A stretch of 64,000 nucleotides of DNA from positions 2,919,001-2,983,000 of the forward strand of contig NC_092673.1 of the NCBI RefSeq assembly GCF_964355755.1, given 5' to 3'. The notes beneath the pieces are model-generated. The model worked only from the letters and a program-made list of their open reading frames with translations. It was not told the DNA's origin and did no database searches. This document shows, piece by piece, positions 6,185-64,000 of the stretch (the first letter of the stretch is position 1; each line of letters starts with the position of its first letter). This DNA is from Antedon mediterranea (Eukaryota; Echinodermata; Crinoidea; Comatulida; Antedonidae). Position numbers and translations under genes: made by a program.

Positions 6185-6395
6185 CGAGAAAAATGTGATA
6201 TACTGAAATTTAATTAATTTGAAACGATACTGATGAGGAAATCTGTGAGAATGAGAAAAAGTCGCCCAACCGAGGCTCGAACCGGAACCTTCTGCTTGAT
6301 ATGCAGATGTCCTAACCATTAGACCACTGGTGCTTTCATGGTATTGTTCAAACTCGATTGGATAGCGACTCTTTAAAATTCTCGTTTATATATAT
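6185..6395 (-). mobile_element. tRNA-derived SINE
   Basis: Read on the - strand: AGTGGTCTAATGGTTAGGAC (A-box-like) followed ~35 nt later by GGTTCGAGCCT (B box), then a body reaching TCACATTTTTCTCGC. The same family is at 15300-15500 in the other orientation, including the shared flanks GAATTTTAAAG / TCATCA...CGTTTCAAATTAATTAA. Confidence 0.7.
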
Positions 6396-7020: not shown

Positions 7021-7567
7021 CTCAAGCTTGGTTCCCACTAGACGCAACGAAAAGACGTACGCTACGCAAGCGAATTGACCAATTACATGTGACAGTTGGA
7101 CTAAAGGCCCATTTACACTAGGGCGATAACCATCGACGACAAAAAGATAAATATGCATTTTTCATACCTAAAACAAAAGAATTTTAAAAAGTTTTCATCC
7201 TAGAATTAGAGGATTATCATCTATGCTGCCTTTTATGAAAATAATATTTCCACACGTCCAATCAAATGACGTCATGATTAGTAAGAGCAATAATATCGTT
7301 ACAATACAACGATTTTATTGTTTTCATTGATCATGACGTCATTTGATTGGTTTTTCAAAAATAATATTTTTATTAAATACAGCATATATGATTATCCTAT
7401 ACTGTAGTTCTAGAATGAAAAATGTTCTAATTTCTTTCGTTTTATCAAACAAAAATCTATGTTTATCTATTTATCGTCGATCGTTATCGCCCTAGTGTAA
7501 ATGGGTCTTAAACTTGTGATTGGTCATTCGCCTTCGTTGTGTTGCGTCCTTGTGGAAACCAAGCTTT
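7021..7567. mobile_element. MITE family a copy split by a MITE family c insertion
   Basis: Family a left half at 7021-7093 and right half at 7512-7567 (GTGATTGGTC...GGAAACCAAGCTTTA). Between them lies family c, entered separately. Confidence 0.75.
7094..7511. mobile_element. MITE family c copy, full length (~418 bp)
   Basis: Ends TAAAGGCCCATTTACACTAG...CTAGTGTAAATGGGTCTTAA. The interior is a long imperfect palindrome centred near 7300, with two TGACGTCA sites (7267-7274 and 7335-7342) flanked by CCAATCAAA/TTTGATTGG. Confidence 0.8.
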
Positions 7568-19883: not shown

Positions 19884-20486
19884 AAGAACGGGTATACAAT
19901 ACTTCCTATGTTATGGCATGATGATCATCCTCCTGCGTTCCTCTTTTATATTATATGTAGCCCTAAAATATAAGCATATATTGTGTTTTTTATTTCCGTA
20001 TTTGATACTTATCTTTAGCTCTTTAAGTTAATGCAAATGTATTTATTAGATATCAAAAACAAGAAATAATGATTGATTCGTGTTATAAGCCATGATTCTT
20101 ATCAGCGTACGATCGTAATGGATTTAATCAATTAATACTATATTGAATAATATAAGATCCGCCAGGGATCTGTGTTCGTTGGTGAAGCCATTATCGATGT
20201 AATGAAAGTCTACATTAAAAAATAATCAATTGTAATTTTTCACAAATCCATTATTGATATTCCAATTGCGTCATTCGTTTTATATTATCGTTGTTTAGTT
20301 CGCTAGCATTGTATTACATGGATGTGATATTTGTACTGAATAATGCGTCTCTGGAGACTGTGAAACGGATTGAACTTCGGTTTCTGGTTACAAACTTTGA
20401 TCGGTGCATGGCTTCCATTCGCTCTTCCTTCTTGTGGAATATTTCGATAGTCCTGTGATGATCCTAATTGGGTTGCAGAATCTGCA

Positions 20487-21815
20487 TCAGCTCATGTCAA
20501 CATCGCATCCTCTTCGATTGTATTATCTCAGCTCATGTCATGTCATCATCGCATCCTCTTCGATTGTATCATCTGCATCAGCTCATGTCATGTCGACATC
20601 GCATCCTCTTCGATTGTATCATCTGCATCAGCTCATGTCATGTCAACATCGCATCCTCTTCGATTGTATCATCTGCATCAGCTCATGTCATGTCAACATC
20701 CCATCCTCTTCGATTGTATCATCTGCATCAGCTCATGTCATGTCAACATCGCATCCTCTTCGATGGTATCATCTGCATCAGCTCATGTCATGTCAACATC
20801 GCATCCTCTTCGATTGTATCATCTGCATCAGCTCATGTCATGTCAACATCGCATCCTCTTCGATTGTATCATCTGCATCAGCTCATGTCATGTCGACATC
20901 GCATCCTCTTCGATTGTATCATCTGCATCAGCTCATGTCATGTCAACATCGCATCCTCTTCGATTGTATCATCTGCATCAGCTCATGTCAACATCGCATC
21001 CTCTTCGATTGTATCATCTGCATCAGCTCATGTCATGTCAACATCGCATCCTCTTCGATTGTATCATCTGCATCAGCTCATGTCAACATCGCATCCTCTT
21101 CGATTGTATCATCTCAGCTCATGTCATGTCAACATCGCATCCTCTTCGATTGTATCAACTGCATCAGCTCATGTCATGTCAACATCGCATCCTCTTCGAT
21201 TGTATCAACTGCATCAGCTCATGTCATGTCAACATCGCATCCTCTTCGATGGTATCATCTGCATCAGCTCATGTCATGTCAACATCGCATCCTCTTCGAT
21301 TGTATCATCTGCATCAGCTCATGTCATGTCAACATCGCATCCTCTTCGATTGTATCATCTGCATCAGCTCATGTCATGTCAACATTGCATCCTCTTCGAT
21401 TGTATCATCTGCATCAGCTCATGTCAACATCGCATCCTCTTCGATTGTATCATCTGCATCAGCTCATGTCATGTCAACATCGCATCCTCTTCGATTGTAT
21501 CATCTGCATCAGCTCATGTCAACATCGCATCCTCTTCGATTGTATCATCTCAGCTCATGTCATGTCAACATCGCATCCTCTTCGATTGTATCAACTGAAC
21601 CAGCTCATGTCATGTCAACATCGCATCCTCTTTGATTGTATCAACTGCATCAGCTCATGTCATGTCAATATCGCATCCTCTTCGATGGTATCATCTGCAT
21701 CAGCTCATGTCATGTCAACATCGCATCCTCTTCGATTGTATCATCTGCATATAGCTCATTTCATGTCAACATCGCATCATCTTATCTTCGATTGTATCAT
21801 CTGCATCAGCTCGCT
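20487..21815. repeat. 50-bp minisatellite, about 27 copies
   Basis: Unit CATCGCATCCTCTTCGATTG, TATCATCTGCATCAGCTCAT, GTCATGTCAA. Length variants of 45 bp (one TGTCA lost) and shorter (CTGCAT lost) recur. No stop codon occurs in any + frame of the unit and 50 is not a multiple of 3, so three long overlapping open frames arise (up to 522 codons); these look fortuitous. Confidence 0.97.
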
Positions 21816-21840
21816 TCTTTTATATTTTAGTATTCACATC

Positions 21841-21853
21841 TCCCCCCCCCCCC
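21841..21853. repeat. Poly-C run
   Basis: About 13 C directly after the minisatellite. Confidence 0.85.
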
Positions 21854-22275
21854 ATTGTTATGTGTGTTATAATCAATCATCAATACAATGTCTCTTAATC
21901 CTTCACATTTCAAATTTTCCAAACAAAAAATTTATACCATATTCTTTTTATTATGTACTAAAGAATACTTGAAAACAAGGGATTAAATTAGTTCCGATCG
22001 TCATGGTAACTAACTCCAAGGTATTAAATATTGTATTAACACATAATATAGTTTAATGCTTGGATGAAAATGAACGAGTTATGCTACATAAATCAATCAA
22101 TGCGTCCTATATCAATTTCTCAATTTACTTACTGAGCCAAAATGAAGGTAATTTATTGCTATTTATTAGAATTAGCTATAGTGATGATAAGTGAAGTTAG
22201 CTCCAGGTATTATTTTGTTTCTTGGGATGGGGATGGGAATGGTATTAGCGGGAGGCCGACGACTGAACATCGTCT

Positions 22276-28629: not shown

Positions 28630-28740
28630 ACTCCGCCCACTGTCTTGCCATTGGCTCGAAATATTGGCTTTGATTACGTAATGATCCTTTTTACACATGC
28701 CCGTGACTAACCGTGACGTCATAGTTCGTAATCTATAAAG
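28630..28740 (+). promoter_or_regulatory. Promoter of the PKI-like gene: GC box, CCAAT, CRE, TATA
   Basis: Reading toward the gene: CTCCGCCCAC (about 28631-28640, GC-box-like), CCATTGGC (about 28648-28655, inverted CCAAT), a perfect palindromic cAMP response element TGACGTCA at 28714-28721, and TATAAA at 28734-28739. The spacing is that of a compact cAMP-inducible core promoter. The ATG lies about 200 bp after the TATA, leaving room for a 5'UTR. Inference: transcription responds to CREB. Confidence 0.6.
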
Positions 28741-28938
28741 CACTGGTGCTTTACAAAGAGCTCATACACTAAAGCAACCTGACAAACAAAAGAGCTGGAA
28801 AATACGAGATTACATCATACCTAAATACAGACGTGTTTTATACTTGTGGGTATATACCAGCTTTTATTTCAGACTTTATCATTTGATATTTTCATCCAAC
28901 GAATTCAAGTAACTAATACTATAAACAACACAGTTGAA

Positions 28939-29388
28939 ATGGAAGAATTTGGCCAGGATACAACATGCTACTCTGAACGAAGAATGGCAAGGCGCAACGC
29001 ACTGCCGAATGTGATGGAAGGTATTGAGCCTAACCAGTTGCAGAACCTGAGAGTACCTCTTCTTGGTTTGCCGAACTATACCAGTGACGAGGAACACGAT
29101 GAAACCTGTGATTTACCCCATGTTACCACCAGTTCATCTGAATGTTTCTTGTCGATTTTGTCATACGATGTCGCCAATAACAAGCACAACGCAGCAGATG
29201 AACACAATGTGAGCATAGGAGGACAGCATTCGAATGTCATGGATAAGGACATTATGAACATTCCTTGTTATCGTCGTCGAAGGAACGCGTTACCCGACGC
29301 GTTAGCCATACTTGACGACAAAAGCCGACAGAGAATAAGCTCACTGGGATCAAAGCACCGCGGGAAATATGGATTAAGGCCGTGGTAA
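28939..29388 (+). CDS. PKA inhibitor (PKI)-like protein with two pseudosubstrate motifs
   Basis: Intronless coding region of 149 residues starting MEEFGQDTTCYSE. Seen: residues 14-25 read RRMARRNALPNV and residues 111-121 read YRRRRNALPDA. Each has Arg-Arg-Asn-Ala-Leu-Pro, the PKI pseudosubstrate core with Ala where a substrate would carry Ser/Thr; the first also has Arg at P-6. Residues 37-44 (LRVPLLGL) resemble the PKI leucine-rich nuclear export signal, and the Ala-to-first-Leu spacing of 16 equals that of vertebrate PKI alpha as I recall it. Family knowledge: PKI proteins bind the catalytic subunit of cAMP-dependent kinase and export it from the nucleus; they are ~75 residues with one motif. 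This protein is twice that length. An acceptor-like TTTCAG at 28866-28871 suggests a 5'UTR intron; an in-frame open extension upstream lacks ATG. Nested in the large POLL intron on the same strand. Function is inferred from the motifs only. Confidence 0.7.
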   Translation: MEEFGQDTTCYSERRMARRNALPNVMEGIEPNQLQNLRVPLLGLPNYTSDEEHDETCDLPHVTTSSSECFLSILSYDVANNKHNAADEHNVSIGGQHSNVMDKDIMNIPCYRRRRNALPDALAILDDKSRQRISSLGSKHRGKYGLRPW

Positions 29389-37884: not shown

Positions 37885-38613
37885 TAACCATCTGGGAATC
37901 AAGTTAATTGATAATTGTCGTCTGATTATTGACTACGCGTCATCGAATGCGCAATAGCGCTCACTTGGGACAACATTAATTAGGTTGTGAGTCGTGATGA
38001 TTTACTGTTCCTGCTGAATGGATGAAGGACCTTTAGCAAAGTTCATTTTAAACCGTCGTTTATTTTGATATTTCCCTTCCTCCTACTATAACTATACTGA
38101 CGTTAGTACAACCAAGGCAATCTAACAGGATGCTGAGCTCTGGAGATCAAACGGTTTATATATGGCTGCCTGCTACACGATGAGTTCCACGCCCCTTAAC
38201 AGACATCGCGCCTCCGGTGAATATGTATATAGTACTGTTGGTATTATTTGTCCTGTTGGTATTATTTGTCGCAGCCAGACATAAGATCAAAGGACTGACG
38301 AGGCAAACCCAGTTTCATGCTGTTCGATCTCAAAGACATGCATGCATCTAATCATTATTGAATATTCTGATCTTCTGTGAAGAAGAAATGTTAAGTCTAC
38401 CAAAACCATTACATCTCATGTTTGTGCAATGAAGTATGGTTGAGGTTGATAACCACACCAAATGATTTTTTTCACAGTATAGTTTAGGTAAACGATAAAA
38501 TTAAACCCGCACGTGTTTATTGCGTAGATATCTCTTGATGGATAAACAGTTCATATACGCGCCACTGATTGCGACGCGTCCTAATTGAAAAAAATATATC
38601 CTACATTTTACAG
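37885..38613. other. 3' end of the large POLL intron
   Basis: 38125-38300 (CAGGATGCTGAGCTCTGGAG...GTCGCAGCCAGACATAAGAT) is a dispersed repeat also seen at 57830-57950 in a SUCLG1 intron. Confidence 0.5.
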
Positions 38614-39775
38614 ATATTCTGACTGATGACTTGGTTAGACAAGAAGATAACGAAGAACAACGGAAATATATGGGAGTCTGTAAGCTGAATAAGGAAAACG
38701 CTAAGGTAAGGTAGCTATGTTTAGTGGATGGGGAGAGTTCAGTCGTAATATTAAAGCGTGGCTCCCACCAGTGACGCAACGCAGCGACGTATTGACGCAA
38801 ATTGATGTATTGCGTAATCACAAGTGGGAACCGACGACGCAACAGTGCTGCAAACATCGCAGGTTTGATTTCATACAGGAGGGAGAAAACACAATTATTG
38901 GAAGGGCATTTTCGCACGTTGCGTCGCTAGTGGAAACAAAGCTTTAGCCATCTACCTTTCAGATAAAAACTTTTACAGTTTTGTTCAAAGTTGTTTATTT
39001 TCTAGCCTTCAAACAAATTTTTGTCCAACATTTGTAATATTCTGGAGATAACAATGGGATTAATGATGTGTTGTTGTTGTGAAGAAGATGACGTTGATGA
39101 CGTAGAAGATAAAGACATTGGAGATAATTACAAAGATAATGTTGAAGATAAGGCCAGGGGGACAATGATAGATCGAATGCAATATCAGGGAGTTGATGAC
39201 GATGATGATAATGCCGATGATACAGATGACAAGACACCTTTATGCATTGTTCATACACCGAACAATTTCAATTTAATCTAATGTAATAAATAATAATTTA
39301 TGGTAATCTATTTTTATTTAGCATCGCCGCTTGGATATTATCGTGTCTCCATGGGATGAGTATCACTGCGCGCTTGTACATTTCACAGGTTCTGACCATT
39401 TCAATCGCTCATTGAGGGCGCTTGCCATAAAGAAGGTTTGTTCAATTATTACCTACTGTATATTGTTTTTTTTTAAAGTGTACGATATCATTTATTATAT
39501 AACACCTAAATAAATTCCTGTCATTATATTGGACGATTGTGGGTCACATGGCGTGCAATAGTACGCACTATTAAACGATTAATTATTTGTATAATAATAT
39601 CTGTATTTAAATTCTGCAGGGTATGTCATTATCTGAGCATGCACTGAGGCATGGAGTGATACGAAGAGGCAAAGTAAAGGTTCATAATGGAACACCTTTA
39701 CCGGTCCACTCGGAGGAAGATGTGTTTACTCACCTTGGCTTGGAATACAGAACACCTCATGAACGCGATTACTAA
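38614..39775 (+). CDS. POLL: DNA polymerase lambda, C-terminal exons
   Basis: Exons 38614-38705, 39322-39435 and 39620-39775 (stop TAA 39773-39775). They read [11 protein letters not shown]...KYMGVCKL, then [35 protein letters not shown], then [16 protein letters not shown]...[20 protein letters not shown]. The RLDIIV aspartate is the third catalytic carboxylate; FTGS and HFNRS belong to the palm/thumb, and the ending matches the Pol lambda C-terminus, where human ends ERDW. The incoming phase fits the donor at 1490, so the two blocks belong to one gene despite the 37 kb gap. Oddities: a copy of MITE family a sits in the intron at 38753-38947, and another begins directly at the stop codon. 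PLPBP follows on the same strand about 1 kb downstream. Confidence 0.93.
38753..38947. mobile_element. MITE family a, variant subfamily
   Basis: AAAGCGTGGCTCCCACCAGT ... CGCTAGTGGAAACAAAGCTT, in the intron between the first two 3' POLL exons. Confidence 0.8.
39495..39600. mobile_element. Partial copy of the 3326-5085 element end
   Basis: TATATAACACCTAAATAAAT...GGGTCACATGGCGTGCAATA...GCACTATTAAACG, in a POLL intron only 20 bp before the last exon. Confidence 0.7.
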
Positions 39776-46779: not shown

Positions 46780-55157
<8,378 letters not shown>

Positions 55158-62957: not shown

Positions 62958-63912
62958 TTAATCCAGTGTGATGCCATTGAATTGTTCGGCAAACTCTACA
63001 AGCGTCCTCATTGGCCTTCCTATAAAACAAAAATTCATGAAACATTTGTTAAAGTACTTGGTCTAATGATGTCTAAGGCAATTCCTCAGCAATCTGTACA
63101 CATTGACAACAGGGGAAATCATTTATTTATCTGCAGTAGAACTCACTTAATAGGGGCATCCCATTGAAAAGGGTATGATCATAGCATACATACACTTCAA
63201 GTCACACTCATCTGGCATGAGGCTAATGCCTTTTGAATAGGAATGTTTCAACCCAGGAACGTTTCAACCCAGGAATGTTTCAACCCAGGAACGTTTCAGT
63301 CCAGGAACGTTTCAGTCCAGGAACGTTTCAACCCAGGAACGTTTCAACCCAGGAATGTTTCAACCCAGGAATGTTTCAACCCAGGAATGTTTCAGTCCAG
63401 GAACGTTTCAGTCCAGGAACGTTTCAACCCAGGAACGTTTCAACCCAGGAACGTTTCAACCCAGGAATGTTTCAGTCCAGGAATGTTTCAACCCAGGAAT
63501 GTTTCAGTCCAGGAATGTTTCAACCCAGGAATGTTTCAACCCAGGAATGTTTCAACCCAGGAATGTTTCAACCCAGGAATGTTTCAACCCAGGAATGTTT
63601 CAGTCCAGGAATGTTTCAACCCAGGAATGTTTCAGTCCAGGAATGTTTCAACCCAGGAATGTTTCAACCCAGGAATGTTTCAGTCCAGGAATGTTTCAGT
63701 CCAGGAATGTTTCAGTCCAGGAATGTTTCAACCCAGGAATGTTTCAGTCCAAAAGTTCAAAACATTGATCGTCTACACTACCTGACATTCCTTTGCTTAA
63801 ATATGGTACTTCATCTTTATTCAAAAACACGCCAGCAATATCAAGGTGTGCCCAATGAGGTACAGAGACAAACTCTTGAAGAAATGCAGCTGCTGTACAT
63901 GCACCTGCTGAC
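62958..63912 (-). CDS. LAP3: Cytosol (leucine) aminopeptidase, last two exons
   Basis: Two exons on the - strand: 63912-63782 (phase 2 in, phase 1 out) and 63019-62958 (stop at 62960-62958). They read SAGACTAAAFLQEFVSVPHW and AHLDIAGVFLNKDEVPYLSKGMS, then GRPMRTLVEFAEQFNGITLD. These align with the C-terminus of M17 leucine aminopeptidase (human: SAGACTAAAFLKEF, WAHLDIAGV and TGRPTRTLIEF). Family knowledge: a zinc hexameric exopeptidase removing N-terminal Leu and other residues in the cytosol. The metal-binding residues lie in upstream exons outside the window, so the gene is 5'-partial here. The intron 63020-63781 is largely a 16-bp minisatellite. A MITE-b end fragment lies just past the stop codon. 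Confidence 0.92.
63241..63752. repeat. 16-bp minisatellite, 32 copies, in the last LAP3 intron
   Basis: Unit AATGTTTCAACCCAGG with two diagnostic variable sites (AACG/AATG and CAACCC/CAGTCC). It has no stop in any + frame, so it yields three spurious long frames (up to 227 codons). Confidence 0.97.
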
Positions 63913-64000
63913 CTAAATATGCAAATAAATTAATCATAAGTAGTATTCATCAATTTGTGGATGTAATGGTATGGCAGGACATTGCCAGATATATTTTATT

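Follow-up and report, generated by a model that had tools for sequence, protein, structure and literature searches.

The three described PKI isoforms are proteins of 70-75 residues, and the affinity reported for PKI-alpha is 0.2 nM (PMC7723848). By the account in PMC5059767, every PKI isoform contains a pseudosubstrate motif, and according to PMC6143667 PKI, RI and RII all fill positions P-3 to P+1 of the cleft of the PKA catalytic subunit (PKA-C), the binding of PKI resembling that of RI. ARHGAP36, a protein outside the PKI family, inhibits PKA-C through an RRxA-hydrophobic pseudosubstrate, of which one is described there, and also drives PKA-C degradation (PMC5059767). A PKI with two such motifs was not found in the open-access literature searched; print sources or annotated proteomes may differ.

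The window analysed here, 64,000 nucleotides of the crinoid Antedon mediterranea (positions 2,919,001 to 2,983,000 of contig NC_092673.1), contains an uninterrupted coding frame for a PKI-like protein of 149 residues at 28939..29388 on the forward strand (ATG at 28939, stop TAA at 29386-29388). Translation bears out what a sequence-only reading had described: the peptide RRNALP occurs twice, at residues 18-23 and 114-119, with arginine at P-6 of the first copy (Arg15) and a run of four arginines in the second (112-115). Motif 1 (28990..29007, forward strand) has Ala21 as its pseudosubstrate alanine, arginines at P-6, P-3 and P-2, and asparagine at P+3. Motif 2 (RRRRNALP, residues 112-119, 29272..29295, forward strand) has Ala117 in that role, its arginine run at P-5 to P-2, Tyr111 in place of arginine at P-6, and, directly after the motif, Asp120 at P+3 as in PKI. 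Residues 18-22 and 114-118 both match the R-R-N-A-hydrophobic pattern of a pseudosubstrate. For a 149-residue protein of this composition, the chance expectation of RRNALP is 2.4e-5, and that of finding it twice is about 3e-10. The codons of motif 1 (AGG CGC AAC GCA CTG CCG) and motif 2 (CGA AGG AAC GCG TTA CCC) differ at 8 of 18 bases and in 5 of 6 codons without a single amino-acid change (six codons being a small sample), so that the peptide, not the DNA, has been kept. Differences of this kind speak against recent duplication of the DNA; they favour selection at the protein level, by way of an ancient duplication or convergence. The flanks of the two motifs share one identity across 41 positions.

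The same genome encodes a canonical PKI (C1:17350935) with GT/AG exon borders and one intron in its coding frame, at a junction placed by inference; its first exon scores 47.3 bits and the joined protein 55.2 bits against the Pfam model PF02827. Given this separate gene, the frame at 28939 would represent an additional PKI-like gene. PKI alpha, beta and gamma, the crinoid PKI and the new frame have in common RRNA followed by a hydrophobic residue at P+1 and (for motif 1) an arginine at P-6; a pseudosubstrate some 20 residues into the protein and leucines at +16, +20 and +23 from its alanine are likewise shared with the PKIs. The new protein departs from them in its length (149 residues against 70-75), its second motif, its lack of a P-11 phenylalanine and the proline in its export-signal core, and its coding frame has no intron whereas that of the crinoid PKI has one. 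PKIs are characterized by an arginine at P-6 and by a phenylalanine at P-11 that serves a hydrophobic pocket. The former is present in motif 1 (Arg15) and absent from motif 2 (Tyr111). In a gapless register, P-11 is occupied by Cys10 in motif 1 and Met106 in motif 2, with Tyr11 at P-10 of motif 1; MAFFT does align Phe4 with PKI Phe11, but only across a six-residue insert. Lacking this phenylalanine, motif 1 is predicted to bind more weakly than PKI-alpha. A search with the PKI family profile, proposed in the sequence-only reading, gives 14.4 bits (library-wide E 0.047), below the curated PF02827 cut-off of 25; the alignment sets residues 15-39 onto model positions 15-39, and residues 1-47 alone yield no PF02827 match. 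On the score and the P-11 position together, we do not claim membership in PF02827.

Anchored scores of the flanks, with the motif itself left out, were obtained for two motifs, two references and three spans (12 tests). The human PKI-alpha reference is the deposited 3wyg chain, with the residue at +13, which may be engineered, masked. The downstream flank of motif 1 resembles human PKI-alpha (P = 0.001), as does the two-sided span (P = 0.0017); the remaining 10 of 12 tests, including all six for motif 2, give P of at least 0.078. Against the genome's own PKI none of the motif 1 flanks is significant (P = 0.32, 0.14 for the downstream flank, and 0.08), and the upstream flanks of motif 1 are not significant (P = 0.32 and 0.41). 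When the downstream flank of motif 1 is slid along human PKI-alpha, none of 13 placements scores higher than the exact register, which has 16, and the other 12 score -3 or less; along the crinoid PKI the exact register scores -7 and is not the best, a slide of -3 giving -5. Motif 2 has no traceable PKI flanks in the tests against human PKI-alpha and the crinoid PKI.

The leucine-rich segment reported to follow the first pseudosubstrate alanine by 16 residues (LxxxLxxL) is there, as Leu37, Leu41 and Leu44 at +16, +20 and +23 from Ala21. Together with Leu34 at +13 it spans 29038..29070 (forward strand) with an export-signal-like spacing; in the crinoid PKI these four offsets are occupied by V, L, L and L. 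Hydrophobic residues fall at +16, +20 and +23 in 2.9% of shuffles of the stretch, and at +13 as well in 0.7%, and the leucine spacing alone is weaker evidence than the motifs. PKIs have a CRM1-type nuclear export signal 16-25 residues after the alanine. Its Phi0-Phi3 spacing is present here and fits class 3 (Phi-X2-Phi-X3-Phi-X2-Phi), but Pro40 interrupts the spacer between Phi1 and Phi2, Pro45 lies just past the candidate and Asn46 stands at Phi4, all of which speak against activity. The published consensus, as given in PMC4168985, excludes proline from the spacers, so nuclear export by the Leu34-Leu44 candidate is doubtful. The N-terminal half had been called a genuine PKI; motif 1 and the leucine spacing do sit in PKI register, but the family score, position P-11 and the proline within the export-signal candidate speak against so firm a label. 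That this half is homologous to PKI is likely but falls short of proof.

Motif 2 invites comparison with RI-alpha, where the X-Ala-hydrophobic of RRRRGAI likewise comes after four arginines (P-5 to P-2); motif 2 has asparagine at P-1 where RI has glycine. The RIIa dimerisation and cAMP-binding domains are absent from the frame in Pfam searches, in which PF02827 is the sole family at E up to 10. By description the protein may also be likened to ARHGAP36, with two RRxA-hydrophobic motifs here and one there. C-terminal to motif 2, KSRQRISSL (residues 128-136, 29320-29346, forward strand) resembles a basophilic kinase site, for which RxxS is the pattern; such a site could allow regulation of the second head.

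Both motifs fit the P-3 to P+1 cleft consensus, and the genome has its own PKA-C exons, the substrate-site exon being intact (stretch L039, which by numbering we take to hold E230, Y235 and F239). The explanation we prefer, held tentatively and at a little under an even chance, is that the product of the frame is a pseudosubstrate inhibitor, 149 residues long and disordered for the most part, that blocks the PKA catalytic subunit by placing each motif in its cleft and is possibly two-headed; that the product works like PKI, be it through two sites or one, is probable. Each RRNALP would occupy the substrate cleft with alanine replacing the phosphorylated serine, motif 1 binding in PKI fashion through its arginines at P-6, P-3 and P-2, and motif 2 through its RI-type arginine run at P-5 to P-2. 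Since Ala21 and Ala117 are separated by 96 positions, a single molecule could bind two catalytic subunits at once, or it might raise the local concentration of sites; binding of two kinases is physically possible because the sites are well separated along a chain that is probably disordered. AlphaFold2 run on the single sequence gives a mean pLDDT of 32.1, with all 149 residues below 50, which is compatible with disorder and no evidence for it alone. If this is true, the genome would have in this second, two-site gene a natural kinase inhibitor that is bivalent. It would offer a direct test of whether shut-off of cAMP signalling becomes sharper with valency, and would show PKI-type inhibition elaborated past its small one-site form.

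It may instead be that one motif binds usefully and the other is weak or auxiliary, the protein then being a monovalent PKI-like inhibitor with a tail. To this we give a low but serious probability: motif 1 alone has the P-6 arginine and PKI-like downstream spacing, and motif 2 has tyrosine at P-6, flanks without PKI similarity and a location within residues 105-149, which are without codon-usage support (see below). Yet both motifs keep their six residues despite synonymous differences, and it is motif 2 that has the PKI-like aspartate at P+3, where motif 1 has asparagine.

Searching the 354-Mb genome for RRNA-x-P-(D/N) with a degenerate DNA pattern gives 10 matches, 6 of which, by their codons, encode serine for an arginine. 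Of the four true RR matches, one is the canonical PKI, two are in our frame at a distance of 288 bases, and one lies on C5 within a 36-codon frame; three of the four are RRNALP, one from the canonical PKI and two from the frame at 28939. These figures bear on whether the arginine-rich motifs of a real protein might serve another role, as a basophilic kinase site, an import signal or a docking site, which is improbable. The failing PF02827 score, the generic nature of the basic runs YRRRR and SRQR, and the poor export-signal candidate would fit such a role, but a generic basic motif needs no double NALP. The wider RRNA-x-(P/H/Q)-D pattern has 28 matches against 42 for its reversed control, the own PKI and motif 2 among the 28; those at C2:6505408 and on C10 encode serine for an arginine by their codons, and 18 others, at C1:35150373-35151402, belong to a tandem repeat, mostly of 61-base spacing, that yields RRNALHD in three frames (first few translated), and RRNALHD in this minisatellite looks like coincidence. 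The matches on C5, C9 and in one of four further C2 copies lie in frames of 13 to 37 codons on translation. An RI-type pattern has 111 matches against 95 for the reversed control, and none of the four opened is clearly RI.

The frame is probably a real gene, for it is one rarely open by chance, its codon usage is exon-like, and its motif copies differ synonymously. Shuffling its single bases 20,000 times leaves it open twice, and from stop to stop it runs to 187 codons, the longest non-repetitive frame listed for the window after one of 217 codons at 51472-52125, which holds an Hsp70 exon. A codon model was built from the longest open frame at each of 25 kinase loci (25 of 129 matches; 8739 codons). 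On this model the frame scores 0.138 bits/codon, within the range of the 25 kinase frames scored leave-one-out (0.026 to 0.159, median 0.105); the genome's own PKI exons score 0.178 and 0.253, and the held-out Hsp70 exon 0.196. Among 177 window frames (at least 60 codons, outside two repeat regions; mean -0.079, sd 0.116), which include the 187-codon frame itself at 0.082, eight score above the 0.138 of the 149-codon frame. Single-base shuffles reach 0.138 in 146 of 5000 cases (2.9%), and the support of codon usage for coding is therefore no more than moderate. By part, the score is 0.21 for residues 1-46, 0.18 for residues 47-104 and 0.02 for residues 105-149; on this model of 25 kinase frames the C-terminal part, at 0.017 bits/codon, falls under all 25 of them and under both own PKI exons, and has no codon-usage support.

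On the best explanation the gene is single-copy and without an intron in its coding frame; the frame and the promoter region each have one match in the genome. Neither the whole protein nor either of its ends has a match among PDB sequences at E up to 10, where the first exon of the crinoid PKI finds PKI-alpha at E 0.0046, and a search of viral contigs for relatives found none. Genome-wide, COX1 has no match, innexin two (34.1 and 31.2 bits) and connexin none, with its controls equally silent. A chance or decayed frame with no present function, such as an old PKI retrocopy, is also improbable: the missing intron, the lack of a demonstrated homologue, the motif 1 flank values against the own PKI and the 2.9% of shuffles reaching the codon score would suit it, but 149 codons are open with two intact motifs, and a plain PKI retrocopy leaves the second motif unexplained.

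Upstream of the frame, all on the forward strand, lie TGACGTCA (28714..28721), which matches the consensus of a cAMP response element (CRE) and is identified by that match only, a putative TATA box, TATAAA (28734..28739), and a putative initiator read from the sequence, TCATACA (28762..28768), whose A at 28764 is 30 bases after the first base of TATAAA. No ATG occurs in 28764-28938, so the start of the frame is the first ATG of the predicted transcript. A splice-acceptor-like TTTATTTCAG at 28863-28872 leaves room for an intron in the 5' UTR, and the promoter would then be at another place; the closest AATAAA is 728 bases past the stop. When the stretch is simulated 20,000 times at first order, a CRE with TATAAA after it turns up in 3 runs. 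The octamer itself occurs nine times in the window (7267, 7334, 14065, 24600, 28714, 33767, 33945, 34122 and 36462) against an estimated 0.7 or so at 35% GC, and two of the nine copies have TATAAA within 60 bases downstream, so the CRE at 28714 is a lead, not a finding. The copies at 7334 and 24600 have TCATGACGTCATTTGATTG in common, and may be part of a dispersed repeat that spreads CRE-like sites. According to a review (PMC11083500), regulators of vertebrate PKIB include CREB, and on that ground control of a PKI-like gene by cAMP is plausible. A CRE beside a TATA box suggests that cAMP signalling would induce its own inhibitor. The fullest form of the proposal, a CRE-induced two-headed inhibitor that joins PKI-type and RI-type sites in one chain, captures two catalytic subunits and shuts off cAMP signalling cooperatively, is unlikely.

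Elsewhere in the window, long frames open in several reading frames at 20401-21972 and 63227-63916 consist of short repeated units and are probably not genes. A match to RSN1_7TM (PF02714) at 38504-38926 on the reverse strand, at 17.3 bits against a cut-off of 28.7, is probably chance. ARAGORN reports no tRNA in the window; Rfam models find a tRNA-like element at 6263-6333 (reverse strand, 32.7 bits) and a 5S rRNA-like element at 49255-49375 (reverse strand, 68.4 bits). The reverse strand at 51475-52125 encodes an Hsp70-family exon (PF00012, 137.6 bits).
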